38,248 nucleotides of DNA from Buttiauxella agrestis ATCC 33320 (GTDB lineage Bacteria > Pseudomonadota > Gammaproteobacteria > Enterobacterales > Enterobacteriaceae), in NCBI RefSeq assembly GCF_000735355.1, contig NZ_JMPI01000077.1:1-38248 (forward strand). The letters are read 5' to 3'. Positions 1-29,534 of the stretch are shown here, one piece after another. The notes under the pieces were generated by a model. It saw only the letters and a program-made list of their open reading frames with translations, was not told where the DNA came from and did not search any database. The position numbers and the translations under genes were made by a program. Every line of letters starts with the position of its first letter. The stretch's first letter is position 1.

Positions 1-26
1 ACGGAGGCGGTGCTACGAAAAGCCCT

Positions 27-42
27 CCGCGTGAGAACGCGG
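27..42. repeat. Short perfect inverted repeat
   Basis: CCGCGT and ACGCGG arms flank a GAGA loop. It lies left of direct-repeat copy 1, in the place where copies 2 and 3 have a long hairpin. It may be the edge of a third hairpin cut off by the window start. That reading is inference. Confidence 0.4.
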
Positions 43-130
43 CCGTGAGATACCCCACCGGGCACACAAACAGCATGAACACACCCGACACGACGGAACG
101 GCGTGGCGATATTAAAGCGACGGTTCACCG

Positions 131-317
131 GCGCGGTGAAGGCGTGGGCCAACGGCCCGCAGCAGGGGTTGACCTTGCCGTTGCCATCAGACCCTAGCGA
201 AGCCCGAAACCCGCAAGGGATTCGGCGGAGACTGGCCGCTGCCGTGCAGCTGCCCGTCGGAGTGGGGCTGACGACCCGGCCGGAACGGACGGAGAGCCGA
301 AGGGGGCCATTGCCCTG
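131..317 (-). repeat. Leading-region direct repeat, copy 1 (candidate ssDNA-promoter module)
   Basis: This GC-rich block recurs at 5162-5380 and 7897-8105. All three copies keep a GGGCC-NNN-GGCCC hairpin whose loop differs (AAC, ATC, GCA). All also keep a 9-bp stem, CCGAAACCC against GGGRTTCGG, with one mismatch at the same place and loop GCAA or GGAC. Conserved stems with variable loops argue for a structural rather than coding role. Small ORFs on both strands here are by-products of the repeat. By analogy with copies 2 and 3 it should serve minus-strand genes to the left, outside the window. Confidence 0.7.
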
Positions 318-636: not shown

Positions 637-795
637 CTACTTACCAGGTTCGTAAACTAGAAATGCAGCGATCTCCCTTGTTCCGTCCCGGTAGCGGATT
701 TCGCAGAGCGATTTCCGTGTCAGGTAAGTGAATATCAACAGTGTTAAACACACGATGAATACGCACCAGACAATGGTACTTCGCGGCAGTTTCAT
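637..795 (-). CDS. hok: Hok/FlmA-family type I toxin
   Basis: This is a 52-residue membrane toxin of a post-segregational killing locus. Residues 1-27 hold the single hydrophobic segment ([17 protein letters not shown]), followed by [13 protein letters not shown] and the C-terminal AYEPGK-like end of the family. Known Hok proteins depolarise the inner membrane when the plasmid is lost and the unstable antisense RNA decays. The start is the ATG at 795 after an AAGGAGAAG Shine-Dalgarno. It lies inside, and in frame with, the longer mok reading frame, so hok translation is expected to depend on mok. Length and residues match the family closely and the frame is intact. Confidence 0.95.
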
Positions 796-852
796 AGCCT
801 TCTTCTCCTTGCACAAAGCGTGGTAAGAGGCTAATCTGAATGTGTCTAGCAT
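637..852 (-). CDS. mok: Mok, leader frame coupled to hok
   Basis: A 71-codon frame starts at 852 and runs in frame into hok, adding 19 residues ([19 protein letters not shown]) before the Hok start. In hok/sok loci, translation of mok opens the hok ribosome site. The antisense RNA blocks mok rather than hok directly. The mok start lies in the stretch covered by the predicted sok RNA, which fits that scheme. The mok product itself is not known to be needed. Confidence 0.8.
809..837 (+). promoter_or_regulatory. sok antisense promoter
   Basis: TTGCAC (809-814), a 17-bp spacer and TAATCT (832-837) form a strong sigma70 promoter on the plus strand. It points away from hok into the mok leader, where the sok promoter lies in R1 and F. 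A start near 844 is predicted. Confidence 0.75.
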
Positions 853-905
853 TGGATCGCCTCGTGGTTAATTGAAAAATTACCTTCGGGGCTTTCTTCT
901 TTCTG
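844..905 (+). ncRNA. sok: Sok/FlmB-like antisense RNA
   Basis: Placed from the promoter at 809-837 and the roughly 60-70 nt usual for Sok. It would pair with the minus-strand leader including the mok start and ribosome site, blocking mok and so hok. An imperfect hairpin (GGT-AATT/AATT-ACC) lies inside. Both ends are estimates. Confidence 0.6.
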
Positions 906-1158
906 CCTCACAACAAGCCGACGGTGAGGCAAAAAGCCTCAAGCGCCATGGTCATTATACCGCAGCGGCACACTTCCTGCCCAGGAATAACATACTGAAT
1001 CTGTGAGCAAATTTAATGCCGGGTTCACCTTCTGTTTCCCGACGTTCCTGCCCATACGTCATCCCGTCACGGTATCCCCCACGCTGTCAGCGTCGAAAAA
1101 TCCTTATTCTGAACAGAAAAGACAATGTTATCGGGACTCAAATCCCTGCCAGGTTGTC

Positions 1159-1371
1159 TTACTGCGATGCACGCGCAGGCCAGCCAGCATAAACGAAAAG
1201 GGCTTTTGCCTGGTGTGAACGGCTGGATACGCGTTGTGCACTTTCCTGGGGGGTGTCCAGTTCATAGTGCTGGTTCATCGCCAGATCCACTGCCCCCGTC
1301 CGGTTCTGCGCAATGACCCGGTAATCAGCATACCCGCAGTGGTCACCCAGAATCACCGTATAGCGTTTCAT
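1159..1371 (-). CDS. Conserved small leading-region protein downstream of psiA
   Basis: Encodes 70 residues starting MKRYTVILGDHCGYADYRV. The start overlaps the psiA stop as ATGA (1368-1371), so it is probably translationally coupled to psiA and is the last gene of the psiB-psiA unit. I recognise no catalytic motif, signal peptide or membrane segment. The N-terminal part looks like a small alpha/beta fold. Similar short ORFs sit between psiA and flm/hok on F-like plasmids, but I know no function. Its place suggests expression during early plasmid entry. That is inference. Confidence 0.7.
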   Translation of the reverse strand: MKRYTVILGDHCGYADYRVIAQNRTGAVDLAMNQHYELDTPQESAQRVSSRSHQAKALFVYAGWPARASQ

Positions 1372-2099
1372 ACTCGCTCCTCCCGGTGTACCAGTTTGTT
1401 CGGAACCATCCAGCGTTCATGCGCCCTGACTGCCGGGGAGGCTTCTTTTGCCAGCGCCTGAACCTCATACATCAACGCCCAGTGCGGCTGGTTGTCCCAC
1501 TGCCACCGCTCAAGGGTTGCCAGCGACGGGAAACGCTCACTCCAGCGGAAAAACATGTCATCGAGCACATTTTCGCTGATATCTGTCTGCCGCCAGCGGG
1601 AGAACCAGCTGCGCACCGTTTCCGGGGTCTGGAATGCCAGGTCAATTTCGGCCTGCCCGACCCTGGACTGATACGCCTGCTGTTCGCTCATCCGGGCTTT
1701 GCTGCGCTGGCGCGAATATTTCTGCTCCCGGAGGTCCAGTTTCTGACGGAACCGCTCATCCTCCTTAAAGCGGGTTTCCGGGAACAGTTCGTATGCCGCA
1801 CTGACCGATAAGGGCAGATAACAGCAGGTTCCCCGGCTCTCGATCAGCGTATCGATGGCGCTTATCCAGTTGGCCTTACGTCCACGCAACTCCCGCTCAG
1901 TGAGCGTGGCGGCGAAATAGTTTATTTCCTTCAGCCCGATACGTTTGCTGCCGGTGAGGTGTCGGAAAAAGGCATGTGCCCAGGCATGTTCAGGCAGGCG
2001 TTTCCCCTGCGAAAGGCGATGCTCCACCTCCCCTACCGCACGCAGTGCTGCGCGCCGGCCTTCATGCAACGGGATAAGTGCAAGATGAGCCGGGATCAT
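1368..2099 (-). CDS. psiA: PsiA plasmid leading-region protein
   Basis: Encodes 243 residues, close to the usual PsiA length of about 240. Family landmarks are the region around AFFRHLTGSKRIGL (residues about 43-57), the central QKYSRQ segment, and the C-terminal ERFPSLATLERWQWDNQPHWALMYE block. PsiA is encoded next to PsiB on F, R6-5 and related plasmids. Its own biochemical role is poorly defined. The start at 2099 overlaps the psiB stop by ATGA, and its stop overlaps the 70-aa gene the same way. The three genes therefore form one coupled unit. Confidence 0.93.
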   Translation of the reverse strand: MIPAHLALIPLHEGRRAALRAVGEVEHRLSQGKRLPEHAWAHAFFRHLTGSKRIGLKEINYFAATLTERELRGRKANWISAIDTLIESRGTCCYLPLSVSAAYELFPETRFKEDERFRQKLDLREQKYSRQRSKARMSEQQAYQSRVGQAEIDLAFQTPETVRSWFSRWRQTDISENVLDDMFFRWSERFPSLATLERWQWDNQPHWALMYEVQALAKEASPAVRAHERWMVPNKLVHREERV

Positions 2100-2524
2100 A
2101 ACGCCTCCTCCTGTGTCAGCATTTCCGCGACACTGGTCGCCGAGCAGCGCATCCGTGCCAGAGCCGCCGTCTGTTGCAGCAGCACATTGATATCCTGCGG
2201 TTCAAACACCAGGGTTGTCATGAGCAGTCTCACGCACTGACCACAGGACGAAAGCAGCACCACCGACCAGGCAGGACTGATTTCACCCGGACTACAGACA
2301 CACAGGTGCCACTGTCCGTCAGGCGGTGTAAAACGACACTGCACCGGAAACAGCCCGCCGAACTCGGTCCGGTACTCGGCGTTAACCTGCCAGTGTTCGG
2401 GAGTCTCGAGGTGTCGCATGATGGCGTGTGTCAGGGTGCGCCTGAAGTCGTCACCCCGCTCACGCCATTCTTCGTATTCACAGGGCAGCATGGTTTTCAA
2501 ATCATCAATATTACGGCTGAACAT
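2096..2524 (-). CDS. psiB: PsiB, RecA-binding SOS inhibitor
   Basis: Encodes 142 residues of the PsiB family. In known plasmids PsiB binds free RecA and stops filament formation on incoming single-stranded DNA, so conjugation does not trigger the SOS response. The C-terminal part (VFEPQDINVLLQQTAAL) and the RRTLTHAIMRHLE region are family-like. I chose ATG at 2524. An AAGGAG lies 8 nt upstream, whereas the in-frame GTG at 2533 overlaps that Shine-Dalgarno. The gene is first in the coupled psiB-psiA-70-aa unit and follows the parB-like gene after a hairpin. Confidence 0.93.
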   Translation of the reverse strand: MFSRNIDDLKTMLPCEYEEWRERGDDFRRTLTHAIMRHLETPEHWQVNAEYRTEFGGLFPVQCRFTPPDGQWHLCVCSPGEISPAWSVVLLSSCGQCVRLLMTTLVFEPQDINVLLQQTAALARMRCSATSVAEMLTQEEAL

Positions 2525-2541
2525 GGTCTTCACTCCTTATT

Positions 2542-2568: not shown

Positions 2569-4539
2569 TCAGGCGGCTTCTGCCGGGTTATGCGAATCGG
2601 TATCCGTCTGAACCGGGGATGCAACGGGTGCAGCCATCCAGGCTGGCACCCAGCGGTTGCCGCTCATCTGGCTTTCGGCGTATTCAGCCGCATCCCCTTT
2701 CTTCATCTTCTCCGCGTTTCGCGCCGCCCCCGTGAGTCCTGCGTCCGTGAGCGCGTCAACTATCTGCACTTTGGAAAGTTGCCCGAAGAATGTCACTGTT
2801 TCCGGTTGCCACCAGTCGCGCAGGTGGAAGTTCAGCTCAGCTTCCAGGTCGTTAAGTGGACTGCGGGAGGTGAAACCGTGCTCACGGGTCTGGACACCGT
2901 TCACGCTGAATGCGGTACACAGCGCCATCAGGGACATCAGTACCGCGCCGTCCAGGGTAAAGAAGGTGGTGAAATCTTTCTGCCAGCCTTCCGGCAGCAG
3001 CGCTTCCAGACGGTTTTTTTCCGCCATCAGCGCCCGCCAGGCGACACCCGTCTTACCGGACGGTGCGTTATCACACAGAGAATAGTGCGAGCAGGTCAGG
3101 CTGATTTGCAGGGGATGGCTCTGCGTGGAGCAGACCACAAAGACTTTCTGACACAACGACCAGACCAGCATGGCGACGGCTTTTTGCGGCTGCTGCATCA
3201 GGGCCGCCTGGACTGCCAGGGTACGTTCGGAGGACATTTTCGTGACCAGCGGCAGACTGATAGCATCGGCAGGATCGGGCTGACGGGTATACGTATGCAC
3301 CTGAGACGGGGTTTTCTCTCCCTCTTCGCTGTTATCGCGCAGCAGGACGCCACGCTGCACGGTCATGGCACCGTAAGACCAGGACACCACCACGCCTGTG
3401 GCGTCTTTCATCTCCTGTGTCCAGGCCCGGTCTGTCCCGGCACTTTCCATCGCCGCAATTTCCAGTTCAAGCGCTGCGGACTCATCACACTCAGATTCAA
3501 ACGCATCATACTGATCCTGAAGTGAGGCCAGTCGTTCTTCCTCTTCTTCGCTGTATACCGGGTTGGGTTCATCCTGCAACACATACACCTGCGCATCCTC
3601 ACCGTGATAACGCACAGACTCCATACGCGCCAGGCACCATGACCAGCCTTCGGTGGCTTTCAGGTCTTCGGCGGCCTGTGTCAGTTTTTCCAGCACACGG
3701 GTATCGAGCAGCACGGCGTCCACAAAACCCCCGTCATCAGCACTGAACAGGTCGCGGCGTATTTCGCCGTCGCGGAATGCGGTTTCCCCGACGAAGCGGA
3801 ATTTTGCGCAGTCGGTGGTGACTTCGCTCTCGGTGATCAGGCTGCGGATATCGCGTACCTCGGGCTTATTGTTCCAGCCTTTCTGACGGGCAGCCTCGAG
3901 CACCTGCACCTGACGGGCCGGATCACTCTCGAGCGCCAGGGCATGGCAGTGTTCGGTGGTCAGTTCGTCGCTGGCCAGCGCTTCAAGAATGACGGGGGCA
4001 AGGTCAGCGAGCTTTAACATGCGCTGCACATGACGGGGGCCATAGCCCAGTAAATCACCAATCTGCGCGGGTGTTTTTCCCTCAGCAGCCAGGGTACGGA
4101 AGCCGACGATTTGCTCTGCCGGGTGCATATCCCGACGCTGTCCGTTCTCGGTCATCGAGGCGACAACCGCCAGATCATCAGGAACACGCTTCACGGCGAC
4201 GGGCTGGTCGGATGAAAACGTGCCGATGTCGGCAAGATGCATCATCGCGGTCAGTCGGCGGCCCCCGGCGGCGACACCGAAACGCCCGCCTTCAAGGGCG
4301 TGAACCACCAGGTTCTGCAACAGTCCGACCGCCGCAATGGAGTCAGCCAGTTCACGGATACTGTCTGCCGCATAGGGGATCGTGCGCACATTCAGCGGGG
4401 AACGGACCAGGGCTGACAGGGGAAGATATTCAATCTGTACGGCTTCGAGGGCCGTTTTCAGGGCCACCGCCCCCGCTTTATCCGCGCGGGTCACGCTGGC
4501 TTTTCGGGTGCTTTTTGCTTTAGACTCGGTTACTGACAT
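2569..4539 (-). CDS. Leading-region ParB-like protein (YubM type)
   Basis: Encodes 656 residues. An N-terminal ParB/Spo0J-type domain (about 35-135) carries LPLSALVRSPLNVR, AAGGRRL and ENGQRRDMHPAEQ. A helix-turn-helix follows (about 155-185, AQIGDLLGYGPRHVQRMLKL). The long C-terminal part, with an acidic stretch near 325-350, is typical of the large ParB-like proteins next to psiB on F-like plasmids. Those are distinct from the partition ParB; this plasmid has a separate SopB at 13764-14726. Some relatives have been described as nucleases, but that is not proven here. The start at 4539 has an AGAGG site. It lies between DUF905 and psiB and is likely co-transcribed with both. Confidence 0.9.
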   Translation of the reverse strand: MSVTESKAKSTRKASVTRADKAGAVALKTALEAVQIEYLPLSALVRSPLNVRTIPYAADSIRELADSIAAVGLLQNLVVHALEGGRFGVAAGGRRLTAMMHLADIGTFSSDQPVAVKRVPDDLAVVASMTENGQRRDMHPAEQIVGFRTLAAEGKTPAQIGDLLGYGPRHVQRMLKLADLAPVILEALASDELTTEHCHALALESDPARQVQVLEAARQKGWNNKPEVRDIRSLITESEVTTDCAKFRFVGETAFRDGEIRRDLFSADDGGFVDAVLLDTRVLEKLTQAAEDLKATEGWSWCLARMESVRYHGEDAQVYVLQDEPNPVYSEEEEERLASLQDQYDAFESECDESAALELEIAAMESAGTDRAWTQEMKDATGVVVSWSYGAMTVQRGVLLRDNSEEGEKTPSQVHTYTRQPDPADAISLPLVTKMSSERTLAVQAALMQQPQKAVAMLVWSLCQKVFVVCSTQSHPLQISLTCSHYSLCDNAPSGKTGVAWRALMAEKNRLEALLPEGWQKDFTTFFTLDGAVLMSLMALCTAFSVNGVQTREHGFTSRSPLNDLEAELNFHLRDWWQPETVTFFGQLSKVQIVDALTDAGLTGAARNAEKMKKGDAAEYAESQMSGNRWVPAWMAAPVASPVQTDTDSHNPAEAA

Positions 4540-4606: not shown

Positions 4607-4846
4607 TTACTGCTTTTTCACACCATAACGTTCGATATAGCGATTCAGCATCGCGCCACCGTCAGCCTCAAAATTCCAGTTACGCCAGATGAGCGGTCCG
4701 GTACTTTCCCGAACCACAAGGCGAAAATGCGTCCCCTGATCGTCTTCAATCGCCACATTGTGATACTGCTCCGCCACGTCCTGCGCCTGTTTGTGGGTAA
4801 ATACCCCATCAGGAAGACGCCCTGTTTCTGGTTCTGAAGCACACAT
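4607..4846 (-). CDS. DUF905-family protein
   Basis: Encodes 79 residues. The core [21 protein letters not shown] and the following [13 protein letters not shown]...WRNWNFE...LNRYIERYG match DUF905, a family known mainly from enterobacterial plasmid leading regions. The function is unknown. I chose the ATG at 4846, preceded by a strong GGGAGG site. The upstream in-frame extension would read through the long hairpin at 4952-5099 and is rejected. This is the first gene downstream of direct-repeat copy 2 and its hairpin, about 105 nt from the hairpin edge. Confidence 0.85.
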
Positions 4847-4951: not shown

Positions 4952-5099
4952 TCTCCCGTTGAGTTCCTTCGCCGCAAGGGCGTCGGAAACACCGGCGGAG
5001 TTGGCTGTCCAGGGCGCCGCTTGCGGCGTGCATTTCACCCTGGACTGACGAAACCGACTGTGTTGACTTCAGCCCCGGCGAAAGGGACTTAACGGGAGA
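4952..5099 (-). promoter_or_regulatory. Long nested hairpin A, candidate Frpo/ssi-type ssDNA promoter
   Basis: Nested stems are visible. TCTCCCGTT (4952-4960) pairs with AACGGGAGA (5091-5099). CGCCG (4970-4974) pairs with CGGCG (5076-5080). AGTTGG (4999-5004) pairs with CCGACT (5054-5059). GTCCAGGG (5007-5014) pairs with CCCTGGAC (5038-5045). Inside is CGCCGC-TT-GCGGCG (5015-5028). The inner part shares GGCGTKCATTTCA with hairpin B at 7685-7821. It lies between repeat copy 2 and the first minus-strand gene, where a promoter would act. F carries hairpin promoters (Frpo) used by RNA polymerase on single-stranded DNA. Assigning this element to that class is inference; I did not settle on -35/-10 positions. 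Confidence 0.6.
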
Positions 5100-5161
5100 A
5101 GCACCAGGAAGGATGAGCAGGGCACAACTACAACGACGCTGAGCGGCGGCGAATCGTCGTT

Positions 5162-5380
5162 GCCCCTCAGAGCGACGGTGGCTTTATCGCCGGCGTGGTG
5201 AAGGCGTGGGCCATCGGCCCGCAGCAGGGGTTGACCTGGCCGTTGCCATCAGACCCTAGCGAAGCCCGAAACCCGCAAGGGGTTCGGCCGGAGACTGGCC
5301 GCTGCCGTGCAGCCGCCCGTCGGAGTAGGGCTGACGACCCGGCCGGAACGGACGGAGAGCCGAAGGGGGCCATTGCCCTG
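5162..5380 (-). repeat. Leading-region direct repeat, copy 2
   Basis: About 219 bp, closely matching copy 3 from its GCCCCTCAGAGCG start and copy 1 from about 5192. It holds the shared GGGCC-ATC-GGCCC hairpin and the CCGAAACCC-GCAA-GGGGTTCGG stem. The block from ACGACCCGGCCGG onward is identical in all copies up to AAGGGGGCC. It lies just right of hairpin A. Small ORFs on both strands are not credible genes. I see no other gene in 5381-5560. Confidence 0.75.
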
Positions 5381-5560
5381 CTGTGTTTTTCATTACCATC
5401 ACAAGGGAAGCGTCATCGTTGAATGAAAAAGATGAAGAAAGGAAACAGGAAAATGAAAGGGAAGAGAAACAGCCACAGTGGCACGACGGAACAGCGTCAG
5501 GGCTCTCATCAACTGTTCACTGACCAGGTTATCACGCGCAGGAGGATGGACGGCGCGTCA

Positions 5561-5579
5561 GCGCCGGTCTTCCCGGCGC
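5561..5579 (-). repeat. Hairpin downstream of the NPPF methyltransferase gene
   Basis: GCGCCGG and CCGGCGC pair around a short TCTTC loop, about 75 nt past the methyltransferase stop. No T-tract is seen on the minus strand, so it is not a classical terminator. Confidence 0.5.
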
Positions 5580-5652
5580 CGCAGGCGCGCGGTCTTTTCC
5601 GGGCTGAACGTGCAGAGGTTGCCTGACCCAACCTCCGCACCGGGCGAGAATA

Positions 5653-6219
5653 TCAGTCTGCAACCAGACGTATAATCACCGTTGAAACATCCGTATAGGT
5701 AAACGTCCCTCGCGGCAGCGGCTCCCAGATATCTGACTGCGCTTTCAGTGCCTTTTCCTGCCGGGGACCGTTCAGACAAACGGCGGTCAGTACGCCACCC
5801 GGTGCCAGCAGGGTAAAGGCATGCCGGATATGCTTAATATCCTGCGCGTGTCCGAATGGCGGATTCATGACAATCCGGGTGTAACGCTTCCCGGGGGCAT
5901 ATTGCAGGAAATCACAGCAGGTCACCGCCACACCTTCAAATTCATTTCTGAGGTACTGACACAGCCCGGTATTGAGCTCAACGGCGTCACACGTTGCCCC
6001 CGGAGCCGCAGCCCGCACAGCCCTCAGAATGGCGCCGGTTCCGGCGTTAGGCTCGAGAATAATGTCACTGTCACGGATACTCGCGAGTGAGACCAGACGG
6101 GCACAAACCGGATCGGGAGAAACAAACAGCTGTGCGCTGGCGTGTACCTCTGCCACCGGGGCGCGTCCCTCGAGCCGTCCGCGCATCATTTCAATACGTT
6201 GTTTCAGAGCGCTATGCAT
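5653..6219 (-). CDS. Class I SAM-dependent methyltransferase with NPPF motif
   Basis: Encodes 188 residues. Motif I is ILEPNAGTGAILRA (about residues 54-67). An acidic residue in DAVELN follows. Catalytic motif IV is MNPPFGHAQD (about 118-127), typical of N-modifying enzymes acting on nucleic acid or protein. There is no separate target-recognition domain, and the protein is short. It resembles small methylases found in the leading region of F-like plasmids. The substrate is unknown. An anti-restriction or nucleic-acid modification role is inference from position. The start at 6219 is preceded by GGAGAAG. It follows DUF3560 after a short gap filled by a hairpin, so the two are probably one transcript. 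Confidence 0.85.
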   Translation of the reverse strand: MHSALKQRIEMMRGRLEGRAPVAEVHASAQLFVSPDPVCARLVSLASIRDSDIILEPNAGTGAILRAVRAAAPGATCDAVELNTGLCQYLRNEFEGVAVTCCDFLQYAPGKRYTRIVMNPPFGHAQDIKHIRHAFTLLAPGGVLTAVCLNGPRQEKALKAQSDIWEPLPRGTFTYTDVSTVIIRLVAD

Positions 6220-6237
6220 TTTTCATCTTCTCCGCAA

Positions 6238-6260
6238 CTCCCCGGCTCTGTGCCGGGGAG
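6238..6260 (-). repeat. Perfect hairpin between DUF3560 and methyltransferase genes
   Basis: CTCCCCGGC and GCCGGGGAG form a perfect 9-bp stem with a 5-nt loop (TCTGT) in the 48-nt gap. There is no T-tract. It may be an mRNA stabiliser or processing site. Confidence 0.65.
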
Positions 6261-6267
6261 CCGTTAT

Positions 6268-7647
6268 TTACAGGGCAGGAATTTCAACGGTTTTCAGGTC
6301 ACTGATGTAGACATTTGACAGGCTGTAAGCGCTATCCATTGCCCGCCGGAAACGATACGCGCCGTGGGTTTCACCGGCCGCCACGCCGCGGACGCTTTTA
6401 TAATCCCGGTGTTTTTCAGCCCACTGGGCCTTTGTCATCGTGATAAATCCGTCACCCGGGTAGTTAACGATCGGAGGGCGTTTTGTCGCTGATGTTGCGG
6501 TGGTCGCCTCTTCCTGCGAAGGCGGCTGATAATCGGTAATACGGTCAATGGTCAGGTTCATTGTTCTGTCGGGATACCCCATAAAGGTGTACCACGGCGT
6601 GACCACTGAACTGACTTCACCCCGACTTTTATTCACGCGGATAATGGTCAGCCATTCCCCGCGGCTGAGCACCCTGCCGCCTGGACGAAAATCCTGAGTG
6701 CGTGTGAACACCCCGCCGTTTTCCTCCAGCATGGCGCGCTCGTAGCTCAGGCGGTTGCGGTAATGAGCTGCCCAGCGCTGTTGGTGGCGGATCGTGCGTT
6801 CATGCCAGGATACGGCAATATCGCGGGCCTGCTGCGCCGTGATAATGTCCTCTTTCATTGCCGAATAGAGGCCCATATACCCCTCATACTGGCTTTTATC
6901 GGCCGGACGTGGATATTTCTCCAGAGGAAAAGAACAGGAGATATGCTCGTAATTACTCACCACCAGCGCCATGTTTAAATCGAGGTTCTCAGAGCGCCAG
7001 AGTTTCAGGCGTTTTTCGCTATCATTGATGGTCTTTTCTGACTTACGCAGGTCTGCCTCAATTTTTTTAATACGACGATAGCGCACATCTGAACGCTCTT
7101 TATAACGGGCATGCCGGATAGATGCCGCCGCCCTGTCCTCCCAGTATCCGGCCCGCTCAAACAGCATGACGGCGCGTTTCATCCCGTTTTCAATTTTCTT
7201 CGCATCATTTCGTGCACGGCGTTCGCTGTGATGGCCCACAAGGATGGGTTGCCCGAAGGGGATGGCAGAAGAGAGCGCAGACACTGCATTCAGTGTCTGC
7301 TCTGATTCGGTGGCGCGTTTTTCGCTGTAGCCGCTGAAGCGTTCCGCGCGTTCTTCCTGGCGATCAAACAGGGTACTGTCCTCATCCTCAATATCCCCGA
7401 CCAGAGACATCAATAAATCTTCACGTCCGGGCGTCCAGGCCGGGGCAACGAAAAGTGTCTGCTTCGGTGCCCACTTAAAGCCCGCCACGCTGACCCGGGC
7501 ATAAGTCTCTTCATCGAGACGGTGACGGGTATAAAGGCGCAGTTTGTTATCGTCCGGGGAATAGGTCGCCCGGTATGTCTGGCCGTGGTTTTCATCAGAT
7601 GCATTTGTAGGCTTCGTTGTCGCGCCCTGGACGTTTTGTTGTGACAT
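6268..7647 (-). CDS. DUF3560-family leading-region protein
   Basis: Encodes 459 residues. The N-terminal part (YRATYSPDDNKLRLY...ARVSVAGFKWAPKQTLFVAPAWTP) precedes the DUF3560 signature GHHSERRARNDA (about residues 138-149). A charged, probably coiled-coil stretch follows (about 165-225), then a C-terminal module with a VNYPGDGFITMTKAQWA segment. The function is unknown. The family is largely plasmid-borne and close to anti-restriction genes. The start at 7647 has a GGAG site 9 nt upstream. It is the first gene left of hairpin B (7685-7821) and so likely the first expressed from it. Confidence 0.87.
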   Translation of the reverse strand: MSQQNVQGATTKPTNASDENHGQTYRATYSPDDNKLRLYTRHRLDEETYARVSVAGFKWAPKQTLFVAPAWTPGREDLLMSLVGDIEDEDSTLFDRQEERAERFSGYSEKRATESEQTLNAVSALSSAIPFGQPILVGHHSERRARNDAKKIENGMKRAVMLFERAGYWEDRAAASIRHARYKERSDVRYRRIKKIEADLRKSEKTINDSEKRLKLWRSENLDLNMALVVSNYEHISCSFPLEKYPRPADKSQYEGYMGLYSAMKEDIITAQQARDIAVSWHERTIRHQQRWAAHYRNRLSYERAMLEENGGVFTRTQDFRPGGRVLSRGEWLTIIRVNKSRGEVSSVVTPWYTFMGYPDRTMNLTIDRITDYQPPSQEEATTATSATKRPPIVNYPGDGFITMTKAQWAEKHRDYKSVRGVAAGETHGAYRFRRAMDSAYSLSNVYISDLKTVEIPAL

Positions 7648-7684
7648 GTTTTGATTCTCCTTATGGGGTTAAAGTGATGCTTTT

Positions 7685-7821
7685 GTGAGTATTCGCCGTC
7701 GCACACTGGCCCGGACCACATTCAGGCGCGCTGGCAAGGCCGCCGGAGGCGTTCATTTCAGCCTTGCCAGAAGGAGCGAATGAGTGTGGTCAAATGCACA
7801 GCGACGGTCGGAATTACTCAC
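7685..7821 (-). promoter_or_regulatory. Long nested hairpin B, candidate Frpo/ssi-type ssDNA promoter
   Basis: Nested stems are visible. GTGAGTA (7685-7691) pairs with TACTCAC (7815-7821). CCGTCGC (7696-7702) pairs with GCGACGG (7801-7807). GACCACA (7714-7720) pairs with TGTGGTC (7785-7791). ATTC (7720-7723) pairs with GAAT (7778-7781). CTGGCAAGGC (7731-7740) pairs perfectly with GCCTTGCCAG (7761-7770). The loop region carries GGCGTTCATTTCA, shared with hairpin A. It lies 38 bp from the DUF3560 start and right next to repeat copy 3. Paired stems with internal mismatches resemble known ssDNA promoters. The function is inferred. Confidence 0.62.
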
Positions 7822-7896
7822 GAAAGTTCACCCACCACAGTGAGGTGAAACAGGGCACAAACGCGGGACGGCGTGGGCGACAGCGACAGCCGTTCC

Positions 7897-8105
7897 GCCC
7901 CTCAGAGCGCAGGCGGATTTATCGCCAGCGTGGTGAAGGCGTGGGCCGCAGGCCCGGAGCAGGGGTTGACCTGGCTGTTGCCATCAGACCCTAGCGAAAG
8001 CCCGAAACCCGGACGGGGTTCGGCGGAGACGGGCGGCGGCGTGCAGCTGCCCGTCGGAGTAGGGCTGACGACCCGGCCGGAACGGACGGAGAGCCGAAGG
8101 GGGCC
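7897..8105 (-). repeat. Leading-region direct repeat, copy 3
   Basis: About 209 bp, sharing the GCCCCTCAGAGCG start with copy 2. Its internal hairpin loops differ from the other copies (GCA instead of ATC or AAC, and GGAC instead of GCAA), while the stems stay complementary. It is followed on the right by unrelated sequence. Confidence 0.75.
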
Positions 8106-8534
8106 AGAAAGGAGGGACGTGCGTATTTTCAGGTCACAACGCCGTTTGCTGAACAACATGATCCGGAAAAAATGACTGTTCTCTTCAGCGCCCTGCCCAC
8201 TAAAAAAACCGGTTTAAACGGCGATGTCATGGCTTATTTTTAACTCACCCGCCTGGCTGTTAAATCAGAGCGTATCGACATTAAAACCTGCTATTTCAGC
8301 AGCTTAATGTGTTCCTTCTATCAGTGAATAATTGCTACGCACATACGCCCTGATCACCAGGTCGAACCCTGTTTCCCCTGTACCGTTCAGTCACCCCCAG
8401 CATCCACTATGATGGGTAACATTGCCGTCTGCGCCGCAGGCGCATCACGCATTGTTACCCGCAGGCGCCCGCCTGCCAGGGATTTAGCGCGGGCAGACCG
8501 ATGACATGGCCACTCACCACCGCACAGGTAAATA
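8106..8534. other. Non-coding stretch with nested hairpin at 8414-8460
   Basis: I see no credible gene here. The clear structure is GGGTAACA (8414-8421) paired with TGTTACCC (8453-8460), enclosing TGCGCC-GCA-GGCGCA (8430-8444). It has no T-tract on either side. It adds to the single-strand-structured character of the leading region. Confidence 0.6.
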
Positions 8535-11729: not shown

Positions 11730-12158
11730 ATGCTACGCCCTATTCTCATCGCTTCAGATCCCCCTAAAATTTTATTGCCGTTATTTACAGAGAGCTGCCC
11801 TGCCGGGTTCCCTTCCCCAGCCCAGGATTATGTCGAATCTGAACTGGATCTGAATGAATACTGTATTTCCCGGCCCAGTTCGACTTTTTTTGTCAGGGCC
11901 CTGGGTAACTCCATGACCGATATTGGCCTGCACAGCGGTGATTTGATGATCGTGGATAAAGCAGAACGTCCGAAACATGGAGACATTGTCATTGCCGAAA
12001 TAGAGGGAGAATTCACCGTTAAGCGTCTGCTTCTGACTCCCCGCCCAGCCCTTCAGGCGATGAACCCGGCTTTTCCAACGTTGTACCCCATCCCGGAACA
12101 ACTCGAAATTTTCGGCGTAGTGACAGCCTTTGTGCACAAAACGCGGAGTGGTGACTGA
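11730..12158 (+). CDS. umuD: UmuD-like Pol V autoprotease subunit
   Basis: Encodes 142 residues of the UmuD/MucA/ImpA/SamA family. RecA filaments trigger self-cleavage, here expected at Ala25-Gly26 in PAGFPSP. Catalytic Ser61 (GNSM) and Lys98 (FTVKR) are both in place. Cleaved dimers join UmuC to form DNA polymerase V for translesion synthesis. The gene lies directly after the LexA box and its stop overlaps the umuC start (TGATG). Plasmid copies of this operon typically raise mutability and damage tolerance. Which plasmid subtype it belongs to cannot be fixed by eye. Confidence 0.95.
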   Translation: MLRPILIASDPPKILLPLFTESCPAGFPSPAQDYVESELDLNEYCISRPSSTFFVRALGNSMTDIGLHSGDLMIVDKAERPKHGDIVIAEIEGEFTVKRLLLTPRPALQAMNPAFPTLYPIPEQLEIFGVVTAFVHKTRSGD

Positions 12159-13432
12159 TGTTTGCCCTGGCGGATGTGAACGCATTCTATGCCAGTTGTG
12201 AAAAGGTCTTCCGGCCAGACCTGCGAGGAAAACCGGTAGCCGTGCTCAGCAATAACGACGGGTGTGTGATTGCCCGCTCGGCTGAAGCGAAGCGACTCGG
12301 GATAAAAATGGGAATGCCGTGGTTTCAGCTGAAAGCAATGCAATTTGCAGAACCGATTATCACCTTCTCCAGCAATTATGAACTCTACGCAAGCATGAGC
12401 AACCGAGTCATGTCTCACCTAGAAGAACTGGCACCGCGTGTGGAACAGTACAGCATCGATGAAATGTTCCTGGATATTCGCGGCATCGACAACTGTATTG
12501 ATTTTGAAGACTTCGGCAGACAGCTTCGTACGCATGTCAGAATGGGTACAGGCCTGACAATTGGCGTAGGTATGGGGCCGACTAAAACCCTGGCTAAATC
12601 TGCGCAGTGGGCGTCCAAAGAATGGACGCAGTTTGGGGGTGTTCTGGCACTGACTCCGGGTAATCGTCAGCGCACCGCGAAAATGCTCTCTCTTCAACCG
12701 GTCGAGGAAATCTGGGGCGTTGGCCGAAAGATTTCGAAAAAGCTTAACAGCATGGGGATCATGACTGCCTTGCAGCTTTCACATGCGAACCCGACCTTTA
12801 TCCGTAAAAACTTTAACGTCGTTCTGGAACGCACGGTCAGAGAACTGAACGGTGAAAGCTGTATCAGTCTGGAAGAAGCTCCTCCTCCAAAACAACAAAT
12901 TGTCTGCAGTCGCTCTTTTGGAGAACGCATCACAACTTATGAATCAATGCGCCAGGCTGTCTGTCAGTATTCTGAACGCGCAGCGGAGAAGCTACGGGAG
13001 GAACGGCAATACTGCAGGCACATAGCGGTATTTATCAAGTCCTCGCCGTTTGTCATCAATGAGCCTTACTACGGCAATTTGGCCAGCGAAAAACTGCATA
13101 CTCCAACTAAAGATACGCGCGACATCATTGCTGCCGCCATGAAAGCACTTGATCGGATCTGGCAGGACGGGCATCGGTACGCGAAGGCCGGAATTATGCT
13201 TAACGACTTTACTCCGACAGGCGTTTCACAACTGAATCTTTTTGATGAAATCCAGCCACGCCCCGCCAGCGATGAACTGATGAAAGTGTTGGATAGAATT
13301 AATCATTCAGGTTTGGGAAAAGTGTGGTTTGCTGGCAGGGGGATTGCGCCGGAATGGAAGATGAAACGAGAGATGCTAAGCCCGGCTTATACCACTCGCT
13401 GGGCTGAGTTACCTGTAGCAGCACTTAGATAA
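12158..13432 (+). CDS. umuC: UmuC-like Y-family DNA polymerase
   Basis: Encodes 424 residues, the usual UmuC/SamB length. Palm-domain metal ligands are Asp6 in ADVNAFYASCE and Asp101-Glu102 in SIDEMFLD. The helix-hairpin-helix region around EEIWGVGRKISKKL follows (about 185-200). A beta-clamp binding motif, QLNLFD, starts at about residue 358. It is the catalytic subunit of polymerase V and is translationally coupled to umuD by a 1-nt overlap. The frame is intact and all visible catalytic residues are present, so it should be active. Confidence 0.95.
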   Translation: MFALADVNAFYASCEKVFRPDLRGKPVAVLSNNDGCVIARSAEAKRLGIKMGMPWFQLKAMQFAEPIITFSSNYELYASMSNRVMSHLEELAPRVEQYSIDEMFLDIRGIDNCIDFEDFGRQLRTHVRMGTGLTIGVGMGPTKTLAKSAQWASKEWTQFGGVLALTPGNRQRTAKMLSLQPVEEIWGVGRKISKKLNSMGIMTALQLSHANPTFIRKNFNVVLERTVRELNGESCISLEEAPPPKQQIVCSRSFGERITTYESMRQAVCQYSERAAEKLREERQYCRHIAVFIKSSPFVINEPYYGNLASEKLHTPTKDTRDIIAAAMKALDRIWQDGHRYAKAGIMLNDFTPTGVSQLNLFDEIQPRPASDELMKVLDRINHSGLGKVWFAGRGIAPEWKMKREMLSPAYTTRWAELPVAALR

Positions 13433-23753: not shown

Positions 23754-24467
23754 ATGTTAAATAAAATGAAACTCAAAACTTTTGCGCTCGCCATTACGGC
23801 ATGTACCGTATATTCAGCAATGGCCGCAGATACAGCAGATGTACATGTTATCGGATCAATTTCTCCGGCGGCCTGTACCCCGACTATTTCCGGTGGCGGC
23901 ACCATTGATTACGGTAATATCAAAGCCAGCAGCTTGAAAGCTGACGATTACACTGTCCTTGATGTAAAGACCTTGGATATTGCCATTACTTGTAGTGCGC
24001 CTACTGTAGTAGGGATCCACGCCATTAATGGCCGACCAAATACCTTAGCCGGGGGCGGCCAATCCTCTGTTACTGGTCAGTCACAGCAGTCACCAGTTGT
24101 GTTACTTGGGATGCCTACCACTTATGCAGTTGGGTTAGGATTGGATGGTTCTACTCCTATCGGTGGGTATGCTGGCAAACTTGACACTTCATCAGTCTTG
24201 TTGGATGGCGTAGCAGTTGAAGGCCTAAATGCAACTAGTACAGATGGCTCAGGAACCTGGAGCAAATATTCAAAGGGTGTTTTGTATACCCCATTTGGTT
24301 TTGATTTATTTTCCTGGGGGGCTAGTGGGTCAAGTGTACCTGTGGCGTTTACAAACATGACCGGTAAATTGTCCGTTCAGGCTTATATAAACAAATCCTC
24401 AGAATTGCAGCTGTCAAAAACAATAAATTTAGATGGCCTCACCACAATTGAATTGGTTTACCTCTAA
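23754..24467 (+). CDS. DUF1120 fimbrial subunit 2
   Basis: Encodes 237 residues from ATG 23754 (AGGAAG 7 nt upstream). The signal peptide ends at AMA (24); the mature start is ADTADVHVIGSISPAACTPTISGGG. Cys41 and Cys80 are in the same places as in subunit 1, and the C-terminus is LDGLTTIELVYL. The middle (about 95-190) differs strongly from its neighbours, with Gly/Ser-rich insertions, while the ends are conserved. That pattern suits subunits assembled by the same chaperone and usher but exposing different surfaces. An upstream in-frame ATG at 23676 lies inside the hairpin region and is rejected. Confidence 0.9.
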   Translation: MLNKMKLKTFALAITACTVYSAMAADTADVHVIGSISPAACTPTISGGGTIDYGNIKASSLKADDYTVLDVKTLDIAITCSAPTVVGIHAINGRPNTLAGGGQSSVTGQSQQSPVVLLGMPTTYAVGLGLDGSTPIGGYAGKLDTSSVLLDGVAVEGLNATSTDGSGTWSKYSKGVLYTPFGFDLFSWGASGSSVPVAFTNMTGKLSVQAYINKSSELQLSKTINLDGLTTIELVYL

Positions 24468-26209: not shown

Positions 26210-28642
26210 GTGGATTCCCAGTATTACATTAAAGATATGCGTATCAGCCTTTCAGTACTCTCGTTAGCAATTGCTGTCGCTTTTTCTACACCGCTCATGG
26301 TTTCAGCAAAAGAGGGGGGGGCTTCCACTGATGACATTGAATTTGATACGCAGACAGTGAAAGCGCGTGGCGTCGATCCTGCTCTTGCGCAGTGGTTTAA
26401 CAAGGCGCCACGCTTTTTGCCTGGCACCACGGTGGTGGCACTGTCAGTCAACGGGGCACAAAAGAGTAAGCTGGAAGTCCATTTTGACAAACATGGAAAT
26501 TTTTGTCCTGACAAAGCATTCTTCAAAGCCGCTGGCCTCATCACCCCTTCGGGTTTTGAAAAAAATCCTGACTGTTTCGATTTAAAAACCAGTTGGCCAC
26601 AAGCCGAGCTGAATCTTGATCCGGGCGAGAATAAAATCGATCTTGTCGTTCCAGCCGATGCCCTTACAGTTGCCGGCCAGGATGCCAGTCAGTACGAACA
26701 TGGCGGTGTGGCCGGTATGCTCAATTACGACGCGCAATACATGGGCTCTTCAGGCAGCAGTTCAGGCACCGAGTTTGAGCAGCTTGATACCGAAGCAGGC
26801 TTTAACGCCAAAGACTGGATTTTTCGCAGCCGCGAAAGCCTATCCCGCCTCAATGGAGAAACGTCAGTTCGTCACCAGGCAGCGTATACCCAACACACTT
26901 TTGATGAGATGAAGAAAGTCTTGCAGGCAGGGCAGGTTAGCCTCGCCAACTCGATGTTCAGTACCGGTCAGGTGCTTGGAATGCAGATGTTTCCTGACAC
27001 TGCCTTACAGAACAGTAAGAGCGGCGCAGCGGTAGTTGACGGAATTGCCGACACTCAGTCAGTGGTCGAAGTGCGTCAGTCTGGTGTGCTGGTTTATAGC
27101 ACAACGGTTCCCGCTGGTCCTTTTCATTTGCAGAACTTTCCTCTGCTGAACACCCGTTCTGATTTGAGCATCAAGCTGACGGGTAACAATGGGGAAGTGC
27201 GTCAGTTTACCGTACCCGCTGCCGCTTTTTTAGCGAACGGGGCTGCGGTGGCCAGCGGTCTTTCTTTTGGGGCTGGGAAGCTCGATCAGGAAGGAAGCAC
27301 TAAATCCCCCATGCTGGCTACTGTAGGCACTGGCTGGGCATTGACGCCAAGAACAGTTTTGAATGTGGGGATATTAGGTTCATCGGTCTATCGTGCGGGC
27401 GCGGCCAGTCTTGGTATGCAGCCCTTTAATGCTACACAGCTGAATATTCAAAGCAGTTTTGCTCAGGACAGCGAGCACGGAGACAAAGGCATATCTACGT
27501 CGGTGAACGTGAACCACCAGTTGACGGAAAGAGTGTCTGCTAATGTAAATATGACCCAACAAACATCGGGTTATCAAGAATTCAGCGATGCCATACAAAG
27601 CGATGATCAGGATTCTGGTGGTCGAACCCATAACCAATATGGGGCGGGCATCAGTTGGGCTGTTGAGGACATCGGCACACCGTCTCTGTCCTGGGCACGT
27701 TCAACCACCTTTCAAGGACAAAGCACGACGTATGTGCGAGGGGGATGGAGTAAACAGATTGGTCGAGCTTACTTATCCGCAAGTCTTGAACATAATTCTG
27801 GCACTGACAGCATGGATGCGGATGACCGCCTCTATGTGAACATGAGCATTCCCTTCGGAAACCGAAGTGTTAGCAGCTACTACACTCATGCTAATACGGG
27901 TACCCGCTATGGCGGACGCTATAGCGACCGTTCAAGTCAAGACCGTGGCTGGAGCCTTGCTGCAGATCGGGATGAAGAAGGCCAAAATACGAATTTAACC
28001 AGTACCATGGATATGGTAACGCCAGTGAGCCAGCTCAGCGGCAGCATCAGCAGAGACTCGAATAATTTCACCAGTTGGTCTGGACATTCCAGTGGAAGTG
28101 TCGTGGCACACAATCATGGAGTGACTTTATCACCTTACCATGTGGGGGATACCTTCGGTATTGCTAAAGTGGGTAATGAGGGGGGTATCCGTCTGGATAC
28201 CCCATCTGGGCCCACATGGACAGACAGCAAGGGGTATGCCGTGTTGCCTACGCTTAATGGTTATAGGTCTTCAGCGATTCAGGTGGACACCCGTAGCCTG
28301 GATAAAAACGTCGATATCAATAATGCCTGGCAGGAAACCTCTCTGGCACGTGGTGCTGTGGGTTACATCAACTTTAGTGTGATGCATACCCGTCGTGTTC
28401 TGGTGACATTAACAGATGCACATGGGCAACCGGCTCTGCACGGCGCAAGCGTATTCAATAAAGAAGGCGAGTTCATCACTGTCGTTGGCGATAAAGGCAA
28501 AACGTTTATTCCTGACTCTAAACCGGGAATGCAGTTTGACGTCCAGGCTTCGGGCAAAACGATATGCACATTCACACTTTCACTACCTGAAGATGCTGAT
28601 ACCAGCGGGATCTTTGAGGTAGCGAATGCAAAATGCAGTTAA
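26210..28642 (+). CDS. Outer-membrane fimbrial usher
   Basis: Encodes 810 residues with the PapC/FimD layout. The N-terminal domain (about 55-130) begins WFNKAPRFLPGTTVVALSVNG. The 24-strand barrel has a plug, followed by two C-terminal domains, and the last residues contain a Cys pair (CTFTL...AKCS). It recruits chaperone-subunit complexes and secretes the pilus. The GTG at 26210 has AAGGA 7 nt upstream. An ATG at 26237 (MRISLSVLSLAIAVAFS) would give a cleaner signal peptide but has a weaker ribosome site. The frame is intact. It is somewhat shorter than typical 830-880-residue ushers. Confidence 0.92.
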   Translation: MDSQYYIKDMRISLSVLSLAIAVAFSTPLMVSAKEGGASTDDIEFDTQTVKARGVDPALAQWFNKAPRFLPGTTVVALSVNGAQKSKLEVHFDKHGNFCPDKAFFKAAGLITPSGFEKNPDCFDLKTSWPQAELNLDPGENKIDLVVPADALTVAGQDASQYEHGGVAGMLNYDAQYMGSSGSSSGTEFEQLDTEAGFNAKDWIFRSRESLSRLNGETSVRHQAAYTQHTFDEMKKVLQAGQVSLANSMFSTGQVLGMQMFPDTALQNSKSGAAVVDGIADTQSVVEVRQSGVLVYSTTVPAGPFHLQNFPLLNTRSDLSIKLTGNNGEVRQFTVPAAAFLANGAAVASGLSFGAGKLDQEGSTKSPMLATVGTGWALTPRTVLNVGILGSSVYRAGAASLGMQPFNATQLNIQSSFAQDSEHGDKGISTSVNVNHQLTERVSANVNMTQQTSGYQEFSDAIQSDDQDSGGRTHNQYGAGISWAVEDIGTPSLSWARSTTFQGQSTTYVRGGWSKQIGRAYLSASLEHNSGTDSMDADDRLYVNMSIPFGNRSVSSYYTHANTGTRYGGRYSDRSSQDRGWSLAADRDEEGQNTNLTSTMDMVTPVSQLSGSISRDSNNFTSWSGHSSGSVVAHNHGVTLSPYHVGDTFGIAKVGNEGGIRLDTPSGPTWTDSKGYAVLPTLNGYRSSAIQVDTRSLDKNVDINNAWQETSLARGAVGYINFSVMHTRRVLVTLTDAHGQPALHGASVFNKEGEFITVVGDKGKTFIPDSKPGMQFDVQASGKTICTFTLSLPEDADTSGIFEVANAKCS

Positions 28643-28654
28643 CAGGAATAAACC

Positions 28655-29242
28655 ATGAAATATCTATCAGGATTGTTGTTTTTCGTGCTGACGTTAAGCC
28701 AAGGGGTCTGTGCAGAAACCAACCAGCAGGCTGCTTTACCGGGGATGCCCCCTGTGGATGGCCGATGCCATCTTTCGGTGAGTAACAGTAACGTTGATTA
28801 CGGAGTACTGTCGCGGTGGCAATTACAGCAAGCTACAGGTGTTCCTCAGGCGCTGTCTCCTGGAAAACGTCTGGTTATGGTCAACGTAATGTGTCCGTAT
28901 AGCGAAAATATGCGCGTAACCCTTCATGGTGATTTGAGCAGCCACGGTGATTTTCGCTATGGCAACACAGGTCGGATGCGGGTGAATTTGTTTTCTGCAC
29001 AACTTGATGGTCAGGATGTCGACATCGCGCTGAGTACTCCCGAGGGTGTGCTGTTAAAAGGCCCAGTAAATACCCTTGGTATTATGCCCGAACAAACATT
29101 TACCACGGTCTTAAATGGACAAGTGACACAGGGTAAGGCCCTTACTTTTCGCCTTGAGCTTGAACCTATACTCACCGAAAGTGAAGCTCGTGCCACGAGT
29201 CGTCAGGTCAGCCAGGCAAATCTCAATCTCGAGCTTCGTTAG
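28655..29242 (+). CDS. Small fimbrial subunit, last gene of the operon
   Basis: Encodes 195 residues. The signal peptide ends near VCA (residue 20). The mature start includes GRCHLSVSNSNVDYGVLSRWQLQQ, resembling the DUF1120 start, and has a Cys pair (C38, C75). It lacks the three-pilin TIEIVYL end, finishing with NLNLELR. It could be the tip or a minor adaptor subunit. No two-domain adhesin with a separate lectin domain is present in the operon. The start lies 12 bp past the usher stop, so the genes are linked. Confidence 0.82.
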   Translation: MKYLSGLLFFVLTLSQGVCAETNQQAALPGMPPVDGRCHLSVSNSNVDYGVLSRWQLQQATGVPQALSPGKRLVMVNVMCPYSENMRVTLHGDLSSHGDFRYGNTGRMRVNLFSAQLDGQDVDIALSTPEGVLLKGPVNTLGIMPEQTFTTVLNGQVTQGKALTFRLELEPILTESEARATSRQVSQANLNLELR

Positions 29243-29293
29243 TATTTTCCTTAGACACTGATTACCTAAAGTGCCGTAAAGCCCCATCCTTCT

Positions 29294-29534
29294 GAATCGC
29301 ACCCCAAAAGTTGGACATCTAACTAAGTAGGGTGCATTTTTTGTGGCTAAGCCAATACATTCTATGGAATTCAGGATTGCTGGCATTAATTATTATTTAT
29401 CTGGTCAGGGAGGTACAACACGGACAGAAGCTCACTTTGTGCTTCACAAAAGTACAGTCAGACACGAGGTGGCATCATGGCGGAAGCATGGTACCCCTGA
29501 AATATCAACCGGCCTGTACAGGAAACGTCGGTGA
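29294..29534 (+). pseudogene. IS3-family (IS150-like) orfA remnant with its left end
   Basis: From about 29294, GCACCCCAAAAGTTGGAC resembles the IS150-group left terminal repeat. A frame from GTG 29343 reads MAKPIHSMEFRIAGINYYLSG and ends TVRHEVASWRKHGTPEIS, like the orfA helix-turn-helix. The rest of orfA and the whole of orfB are missing, so the element is a decayed fragment. It separates the fimbrial operon from the next genes. Confidence 0.7.

Follow-up and report, generated by a model that had tools for sequence, protein, structure and literature searches.

Putative single-stranded DNA promoters adjoined by a folded DNA domain in the leading region of an F-like plasmid of Buttiauxella agrestis

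Four putative control units in the leading region

The stretch of DNA analysed here, in the following called the window, comprises 38,248 nt of the genome of Buttiauxella agrestis ATCC 33320 (GCF_000735355.1, contig NZ_JMPI01000077.1, positions 1 to 38,248) and is part of the leading region of an F-like conjugative plasmid. Four putative control units, in the order D, C, A and B from oriT outwards, are present in this region. The reading that we put forward, with a probability of about 0.8, is that the unit is bipartite on the transferred strand (T-strand), with a long imperfect hairpin of the Frpo type and, on its 3′ side, a folded domain of single-stranded DNA (ssDNA), and that the hairpins would act as ssDNA promoters for the blocks of leading genes, as comparison with related plasmids suggests. 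Promoters of the Frpo type are already known and common, and the plasmid provides an example with four units. The more interesting half of the finding is the pairing of the hairpin with a GC-rich repeat.

The original prediction had described two units, A and B, within the window. Both are real, and the count was too low, as repeat copies at positions 125-309 and on a second contig of the same genome (C76) had been missed. The last 66 bases of C76 are identical with the first 66 bases of the window (exact 66-nt overlap), and because the two contigs join in this way and the further repeat copies belong to two more units, there are four units instead of two. The sequence GCGTGGGGTGTGGTG, which we take to be the nic core of F, has a single occurrence in each of the two stretches compared, on the minus strand in that of F and on the plus strand in that of C76, and the leading region lies 3′ of it in both cases. 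Since the orientation of the nic core is the same as in F and the leading genes reside on the minus strand, the plus strand of the window was taken as the T-strand. The distances from the nic core amount to about 2.0 kb for unit D, 3.9 kb for unit C (across the contig joint), 9.0 kb for unit A and 11.7 kb for unit B.

Candidate hairpins of the Frpo type

When folded as DNA, hairpin A (4952-5099, plus strand) reaches -47.2 kcal/mol with a z-score of -7.0 and hairpin B (7685-7821, plus strand) -38.2 kcal/mol with a z-score of -5.8, while the minus strands fold less well (z-scores of -4.6 and -5.2, respectively); none of 200 shuffled sequences was as good as any of the four folds. Both hairpins thus exist as originally described. 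The lack of a stable fold of the plus strand had been named beforehand as an outcome that would speak against them; a stable fold was obtained for the plus strand, and the complement is less stable. Further details of the original prediction were recovered as well: the apical motif GGCGTKCATTTCA is present in the inner part of both hairpins, CAGGGCACAA lies between hairpin and repeat in both units, a GC-rich direct repeat with 82-93% identity between the copies adjoins each hairpin, and hairpin B is separated by 38 bp from the ATG at 7647 of a gene that Pfam confirms as DUF3560 (6.7e-34). The word CAGGGCACAA has only these two occurrences on the plus strand of the window and none on the other strand. 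The elements, apart from the hairpins A and B themselves, are the following:

1-66, plus strand: 3′ part of hairpin C; the rest is on C76, and the whole hairpin is seen in the joined contigs
5025-5037, plus strand: GGCGTGCATTTCA, apical motif of hairpin A, once in the window
5118-5127, plus strand: CAGGGCACAA between hairpin A and domain A
7748-7760, plus strand: GGCGTTCATTTCA, apical motif of hairpin B, once in the window
7851-7860, plus strand: CAGGGCACAA between hairpin B and domain B

The F plasmid carries two promoters of this type, Frpo1 and Frpo2. PMC8744291 and PMC7690428 give 328 bp as the extent of the F Frpo region, and according to PMC9849209 the genes that follow Frpo1 and Frpo2 depend on them in vivo for early expression. 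Similar promoters are presented as common in leading regions (PMC11541004; PMC12826799). Searches with blastn revealed homology between the hairpin A region and F Frpo1 and Frpo2. When hairpin A was compared together with its flanks, the leader and the 5′ arm matched both F Frpo regions with 74% identity over 119 nt (expectation value, E, 3e-14), and the 3′ arm and the sequence beyond it matched with E values of 6e-11 and 4e-7. The 148-nt hairpin A alone gave weak matches in short pieces of 22-29 nt (E 5e-5 and 6e-4). The apical core TGCATTTCACCC is exactly conserved in F Frpo1, with one mismatch in the ssb unit of ColIb-P9 and four in F Frpo2; hairpin B retains the apical motif with deviations from this core at two positions, and it also agrees in length and place. 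Hairpin B is not alignable to F and yet has the same architecture, and this analogy supports it as a Frpo-like candidate. The original assignment to the Frpo type is thus backed by homology for the region of hairpin A and by shared architecture only for hairpin B.

Likeness to F Frpo1 and Frpo2 extends to the place in the leading region, the location on the transferred strand, the long imperfect hairpin and a GC-rich block 3′ of it on the T-strand. Unlike the plasmid studied here, F has two units instead of four and a partner domain of another sequence type, and hairpin B is without a sequence match there. The Frpo-like promoters catalogued in PMC11541004 agree with ours in position, strand and proposed role, whereas the catalogue counts promoters and, in the portion of that source available to us, describes no partner domain. 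With a 540-nt query covering unit A, at least 5000 plasmid records were retrieved; among the matches listed, 151 span at least 80% of the query, none of them with an identity of 90% or higher. Rfam, searched with the unit A stretch at E values up to 1, returned two sub-threshold matches, both over hairpin A.

The GC-rich repeat as a separate folded domain

The direct repeats next to the hairpins are 82% identical between 5162-5305 and 7897-8040 and 93% identical between 5297-5372 and 8031-8106; the two further copies in the genome, at 125-309 of the window and at C76:46011-46196, show 96% and 95% identity, respectively. The repeat is a separate, covarying multi-helix domain. It spans about 130 nt and has six helices: P0 encloses all others, P1 encloses P1a, P2 and P3, and P4 follows P1. 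Three domains in the window are full-length matches to the covariance model that we derived (R1):

177-311, plus strand: folded T-strand domain of unit C, 135.4 bits (outside the seed, near to seed copies)
5239-5374, plus strand: folded T-strand domain of unit A, 125.1 bits (copy in the seed), with the mini-hairpin GCGAAGC at 5259-5265
7974-8108, plus strand: folded T-strand domain of unit B, 119.7 bits (copy in the seed), with the mini-hairpin GC-GAAA-GC at 7994-8001

The alignment behind these statements was built from 40 units plus copy C, which gave 39 distinct domain sequences, 34 after a filter at 92% identity and finally 33 aligned rows, with one locus (L032) left out. RNAalifold recovered P1 only partially on the first MAFFT alignments, and the structure was then taken from column covariation. 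In the 33 rows, 26 of the 39 base pairs are changed on both sides, 91.3% of the paired cells are able to pair (78.4% when shuffled), and the covariation score is 0.304 as compared to 0.106 for shuffled and 0.029-0.058 for slid alignments, all with a structure that was derived from the same sequences as those scored; none of 500 shuffles reached any of five covariation measures. The three-base core of P1, as an example, occurs as CCC/GGG, CAC/GTG, CCG/CGG and CAG/CTG. Copies outside the seed, from ColIb-P9 and from one sampled genome (G019), scored between 84 and 107 bits with R1 and contain additional compensatory changes.

A 186-nt core of the repeat was retrieved by BLAST in 26 of 295 sampled genomes of the family and in 766 plasmid records. 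Model R1, applied with stricter filters to 394 genomes of the order, found 11; both genome searches score few candidates per genome.

Several other identities for the repeat were considered and rejected. A known RNA family is not apparent, as Rfam gave no match to the domain at gathering score in the window and none for the domain of unit A at E values up to 1. Open reading frames (ORFs) cross the repeat on both strands, but one-base indels between copies and the covarying stems fit poorly with a coding sequence, a judgement made without a formal coding test. As to a phage origin, neither the window-type core nor an F query covering 50 bases of the F-type domain described below plus flank had a match in a phage collection.

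Strand preference of hairpins and domains

A set of 47 hairpin segments was compiled, 42 of which contain the apical core at up to four mismatches, a loose limit that admits chance matches, and 21 were chosen by eye. In all 21 the T-strand fold is the more stable one with DNA energies, and in 20 of the 21 with RNA energies; in random control windows the plus strand was ahead in 85 of 200 cases. The T-strand folds of the 21 hairpins contain 68 G.T pairs and, as single mismatches, 6 A.C, 59 G.A and 4 C.T, as opposed to 25 G.T pairs, 15 A.C, 8 G.A and 23 C.T in the complementary folds. Because G.T was scored as a pair and A.C only as a single mismatch, only the comparison of strand with strand is fair. 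Over the whole set the imperfections of the stems are non-random, with G.A prevailing on the T-strand (hairpin A alone has two, hairpin B alone one). An asymmetry of this kind would be expected if selection had acted on the fold of the T-strand; the choice by eye and the kinship of the 21 hairpins weaken the numbers.

As for the domain, all 18 strong R1 matches on five mapped plasmids (that of the window and those from Cedecea, Pantoea and Pectobacteriaceae as well as ColIb-P9) are on the T-strand, a count that leaves out opposite-strand fragments, two of 21 bases (E 0.44 and 0.69) and one with an E value of 5.2, and for which the T-strand of the relatives was inferred from F-like gene order. 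In 31 of the 33 aligned domain sequences, the T-strand is the more stable one when DNA energies are applied. The loop of P1a is GNA in 9 and GNNA in 20 sequences, i.e., 29 of 33 when a closing C-G pair is counted where present (a script count without the closing pair gave 12 of 33); the remaining four sequences have a loop of five bases in three cases and GAAT in one. A pyrimidine occupies the third position in 15 of the 20 GNNA loops, which are hence not GNRA. Loops of these two kinds on at least two G-C pairs are described in PMC4686876 as extraordinarily stable, nuclease-resistant DNA mini-hairpins, with GCGAAGC melting at 78 °C, and unit A contains exactly this heptamer. The smallest helix of the domain is thus of the same type, with the difference that the DNA fragments and aptamers presented in PMC4686876 are replaced here by a conserved natural element.

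An F-type version of the domain and mixed plasmids

On the T-strand of F, a GC-rich block lies 3′ of each Frpo, and its outer part covaries separately. From 30 loci, 23 of which matched, 28 rows were obtained, 25 after removal of three (a ColIb flank and two weak ones), and 23 were aligned after omission of two near duplicates; one row is shortened at the 5′ end. In this F-type domain, 8 of 17 pairs show changes on both sides, the covariation score is 0.263 versus 0.092 when shuffled, and 97.6% of the cells are paired, again with a structure set from the sequences that were scored. A compensatory change from GCGTC/GACGC to GCGAC/GTCGC is found in five sequences. GCGNAGC occurs in 14 of the 23 sequences with all four bases at N, the ratio of G.T to A.C is 5 to 1, and the T-strand is more stable in 21 of 23 with DNA energies. 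A query with the GC-rich block leading into the F-type domain, which overlaps that domain by 20 bases only, matched at least 5000 plasmid records.

Features of both types are combined in single plasmids. ColIb-P9 has an F-like 5′ flank followed by a window-type domain, and a Cedecea plasmid (L036) contains both versions, with three window-type and two F-type copies. One of its F-type copies belongs to the unit that precedes DUF905, in which the window carries the window-type. On these grounds the places of the two versions are equivalent. No match to model R1 is found in F, and for this reason a common ancestry of the two types is not established. ColIb-P9 resembles the window plasmid in that hairpin and the same type of domain are combined on the T-strand (106.7 and 103.3 bits for the two copies) and in that several units are present per plasmid; it differs as a MOBP plasmid with another gene order, and its domain is not named as a separate structure in the portion of PMC3817090 available to us. 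Titles and the opening lines of abstracts, the level at which the literature was searched, contain no description of the partner domain; the original papers on Frpo and ssi were outside this scope, and the repeats reported there may well include the sequence.

Two structures in these plasmids were noted in passing. ColIb-P9 has another long T-strand-biased hairpin at about 23962-24131 of the analysed locus L040 (-47.8 versus -31.4 kcal/mol), without a match to the window-type domain, and in the Cedecea plasmid a T-strand-biased hairpin at about 28961-29320 (-42.2 versus -31.3 kcal/mol) is followed by a stable block that neither domain search matched.

Observations that weigh against the two-part reading

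A number of results do not favour the proposed units. The pairing of hairpin and domain is not absolute: a strict hairpin, defined as long, within 330 nt, with a z-score of -3.5 or lower and a T-strand advantage of at least 2 kcal/mol, is present on the 5′ side in 20 of 41 domain copies and on the 3′ side in 5 of 41. Some of the misses are longer hairpins with inserts and others are without a hairpin. Hairpin B gave no blastn match to F at an E value of 0.01, and although hairpin A contains TTGACT in its 3′ arm, reading of the hairpin sequences by eye gave no good -10 element, so that promoter boxes could not be fixed. The end pair 18-104 of P1 fails in 12 of 32 sequences. The covariation test is not independent and is more of a description, as the sequences that were scored had also served to set the structure. 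When RNA energies are applied, the T-strand is ahead in only 18 of 33 window-type and 16 of 23 F-type domains. Over the 39 pairs of the window-type domain, G.T and A.C are balanced at 15 to 15; if the end pairs 18-104 and 117-138 are omitted, the ratio becomes 14 to 4, so that this test does not decide by itself. Finally, weaker copies with 66.8, 46.5, 44.0 and 31.2 bits reside on contigs not known as plasmids (of 410, 16, 53 and 235 kb, respectively), the last of which may be a chance match.

The surroundings of two of these copies were inspected. The 66.8-bit copy (L063, about 5786-5906, minus strand) is part of an island that encodes a cyclase of the CBASS type and a SAVED endonuclease and also contains an integrase-like ORF and one of 325 aa. 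The 46.5-bit copy (L062, on a contig, C12, of the B. agrestis genome itself, 5635-5760, minus strand) lies beside ORFs of 660 and 383 aa that resemble McrB and McrC by eye; among the ORFs of this locus, PADLOC returned generic restriction-enzyme matches for the 660-aa ORF and none for the 383-aa ORF.

Genes of the leading region

Each hairpin directly precedes one block of leading genes, hairpin A that of DUF905, parB, psiB and psiA, and hairpin B that of DUF3560 and a methyltransferase:

1368-2099, minus strand: psiA (Pfam 2.5e-36)
2096-2533, minus strand: psiB (Pfam 3e-68)
2569-4539, minus strand: ParB-like protein (Pfam ParB_N 5.4e-08, HTH_ParB 7e-08)
4607-4846, minus strand: DUF905, first gene after hairpin A (Pfam 1.2e-33)
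5653-6219, minus strand: small methyltransferase, second gene after hairpin B (Pfam MTS 3.7e-05, slightly over its cut-off)
6268-7647, minus strand: DUF3560, first gene after hairpin B (Pfam 6.7e-34)

Models for rRNA adenine methyltransferases match the small methyltransferase only far under their cut-offs. DUF1380 and a DNA methylase are also encoded on the minus strand of the leading region, the outer boundary of which is formed by umuDC-like genes at 11730-13432; operons of this kind bound many leading-region islands according to PMC11541004. A sok antitoxin RNA (793-948, minus strand, Rfam 86.4 bits) is located between units C and A, and for F, PMC9849209 likewise places the flmAB genes between Frpo1 and Frpo2. 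C76 encodes a TraM-like protein (NCBIfam 4.2e-12, with 46 bits where the cut-off is 104), an ORF of the DUF932/YgeB type that was assigned by position (NCBIfam 19.8 bits, far under the cut-off) and an ORF that may be a transglycosylase, as judged from reading the ORF alone. Past the leading region, a gene for the usher of a chaperone-usher fimbrial system was noted at 26210-28642 (plus strand, Pfam).

Possible function of hairpin and partner domain

Upon entry into the recipient, the T-strand, i.e., the plus strand of the window, would fold into hairpin and partner domain. Following the published work on F and ColIb-P9, host RNA polymerase would use the hairpin stem as a promoter and read the T-strand towards its 5′ end, such that transcripts for DUF3560 and the methyltransferase would originate from unit B and those for DUF905, parB, psiB and psiA from unit A. 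Synthesis of the complementary strand would then remove both structures, and early expression would stop, a shut-off again deduced from F and ColIb-P9. The partner domain might assist the hairpin by providing a stretch free of single-stranded DNA-binding protein (SSB), by delaying complementary-strand synthesis or by recruiting a host protein, and it might resist nucleases through its mini-hairpins; these are guesses. A helper of the promoter is the role that we tentatively prefer to priming, at somewhat less than even odds.

Priming is nevertheless the alternative that survives best. The partner domain could be an ssi site, at which loading of primase or primosome starts the complementary strand and thereby switches the neighbouring hairpin off. 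A strand-specific folded ssDNA adjoining Frpo would suit such a site, as would the position of the ColIb-P9 domain beside two long T-strand hairpins, and sequences of the Frpo type also go by the name ssi (PMC7690428). The published Frpo, though, already provides a primer. The complementary-strand origin of phage G4 is comparable as a functional structured ssDNA in Escherichia coli, but an unfiltered search with R1 on G4 and phiX174 gave at best 7.3 bits, and a priming site of the G4/phiX type was rejected. We regard an ssi site as rather unlikely.

The partner domain might also act as RNA, either in the transcripts of the leading genes (minus strand) or in an RNA read from the plus strand. 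Its architecture is like that of structured RNAs, two of the weaker copies outside known plasmids are on the coding strand of neighbouring genes, and the strands are about equal when RNA energies are applied (18 of 33 and 16 of 23). Against this speak the plus-strand loops, which are GNA/GNNA in 29 of 33 sequences with 15 of the 20 GNNA loops not being GNRA, the DNA energies, which are better for the plus strand in 31 of 33, and the absence of an Rfam match at gathering score. We consider an RNA function improbable.

A little less probable still is that the repeats serve chiefly as recombination or mobile sequences by which gene blocks of the leading region are reshuffled. The multiple near-identical copies (95-96%) would fit this. 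In Pantoea, three of seven copies are without a hairpin, and their 5′ flanks are unrelated up to the edge of the domain. For IncI1 plasmids, PMC3817090 reports imperfect repeats that hold Frpo and a leading region between these repeats that is present or absent. Base-pair covariation and strand bias, on the other hand, would be left unexplained by recombination. In the three Pantoea copies without a hairpin (L037, 28012-28138, 29116-29242 and 34455-34581), the 5′ flanks diverge near the domain edge and two of the 3′ flanks are alike, as if breakpoints were located there.

A role of the hairpins as cruciforms, terminators or protein sites, at the level of double-stranded DNA or of RNA and in place of an ssDNA promoter, is very improbable: both strands beat the shuffled sequences, but the asymmetry in energy and mismatches, the homology of the hairpin A region to a published ssDNA promoter and the tie between strand and direction of transfer all speak against it.

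Apart from the promoter function itself, we lean slightly towards a broader view, according to which the partner domains constitute a conserved family of natural folded ssDNA in enterobacterial conjugative plasmids, a DNA counterpart of structured RNA families. Such elements would exist only as long as the T-strand is single-stranded, would work together with an ssDNA promoter, would use GNA/GNNA mini-hairpins as building blocks and would come in at least two interchangeable versions, the type of the window and ColIb-P9 and that of F. The partner domain would then represent a functional ssDNA fold that is conserved and covaries, which is rare in bacteria, and it is located also beside the classical promoters of F and ColIb-P9. 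The role of the bases next to Frpo, the access to the promoter in the presence of SSB and the timing of early expression relative to complementary-strand synthesis become testable on this basis. With 766 plasmid records for the window-type core and at least 5000 for the block leading into the F-type domain, any function of the domain may be widespread.

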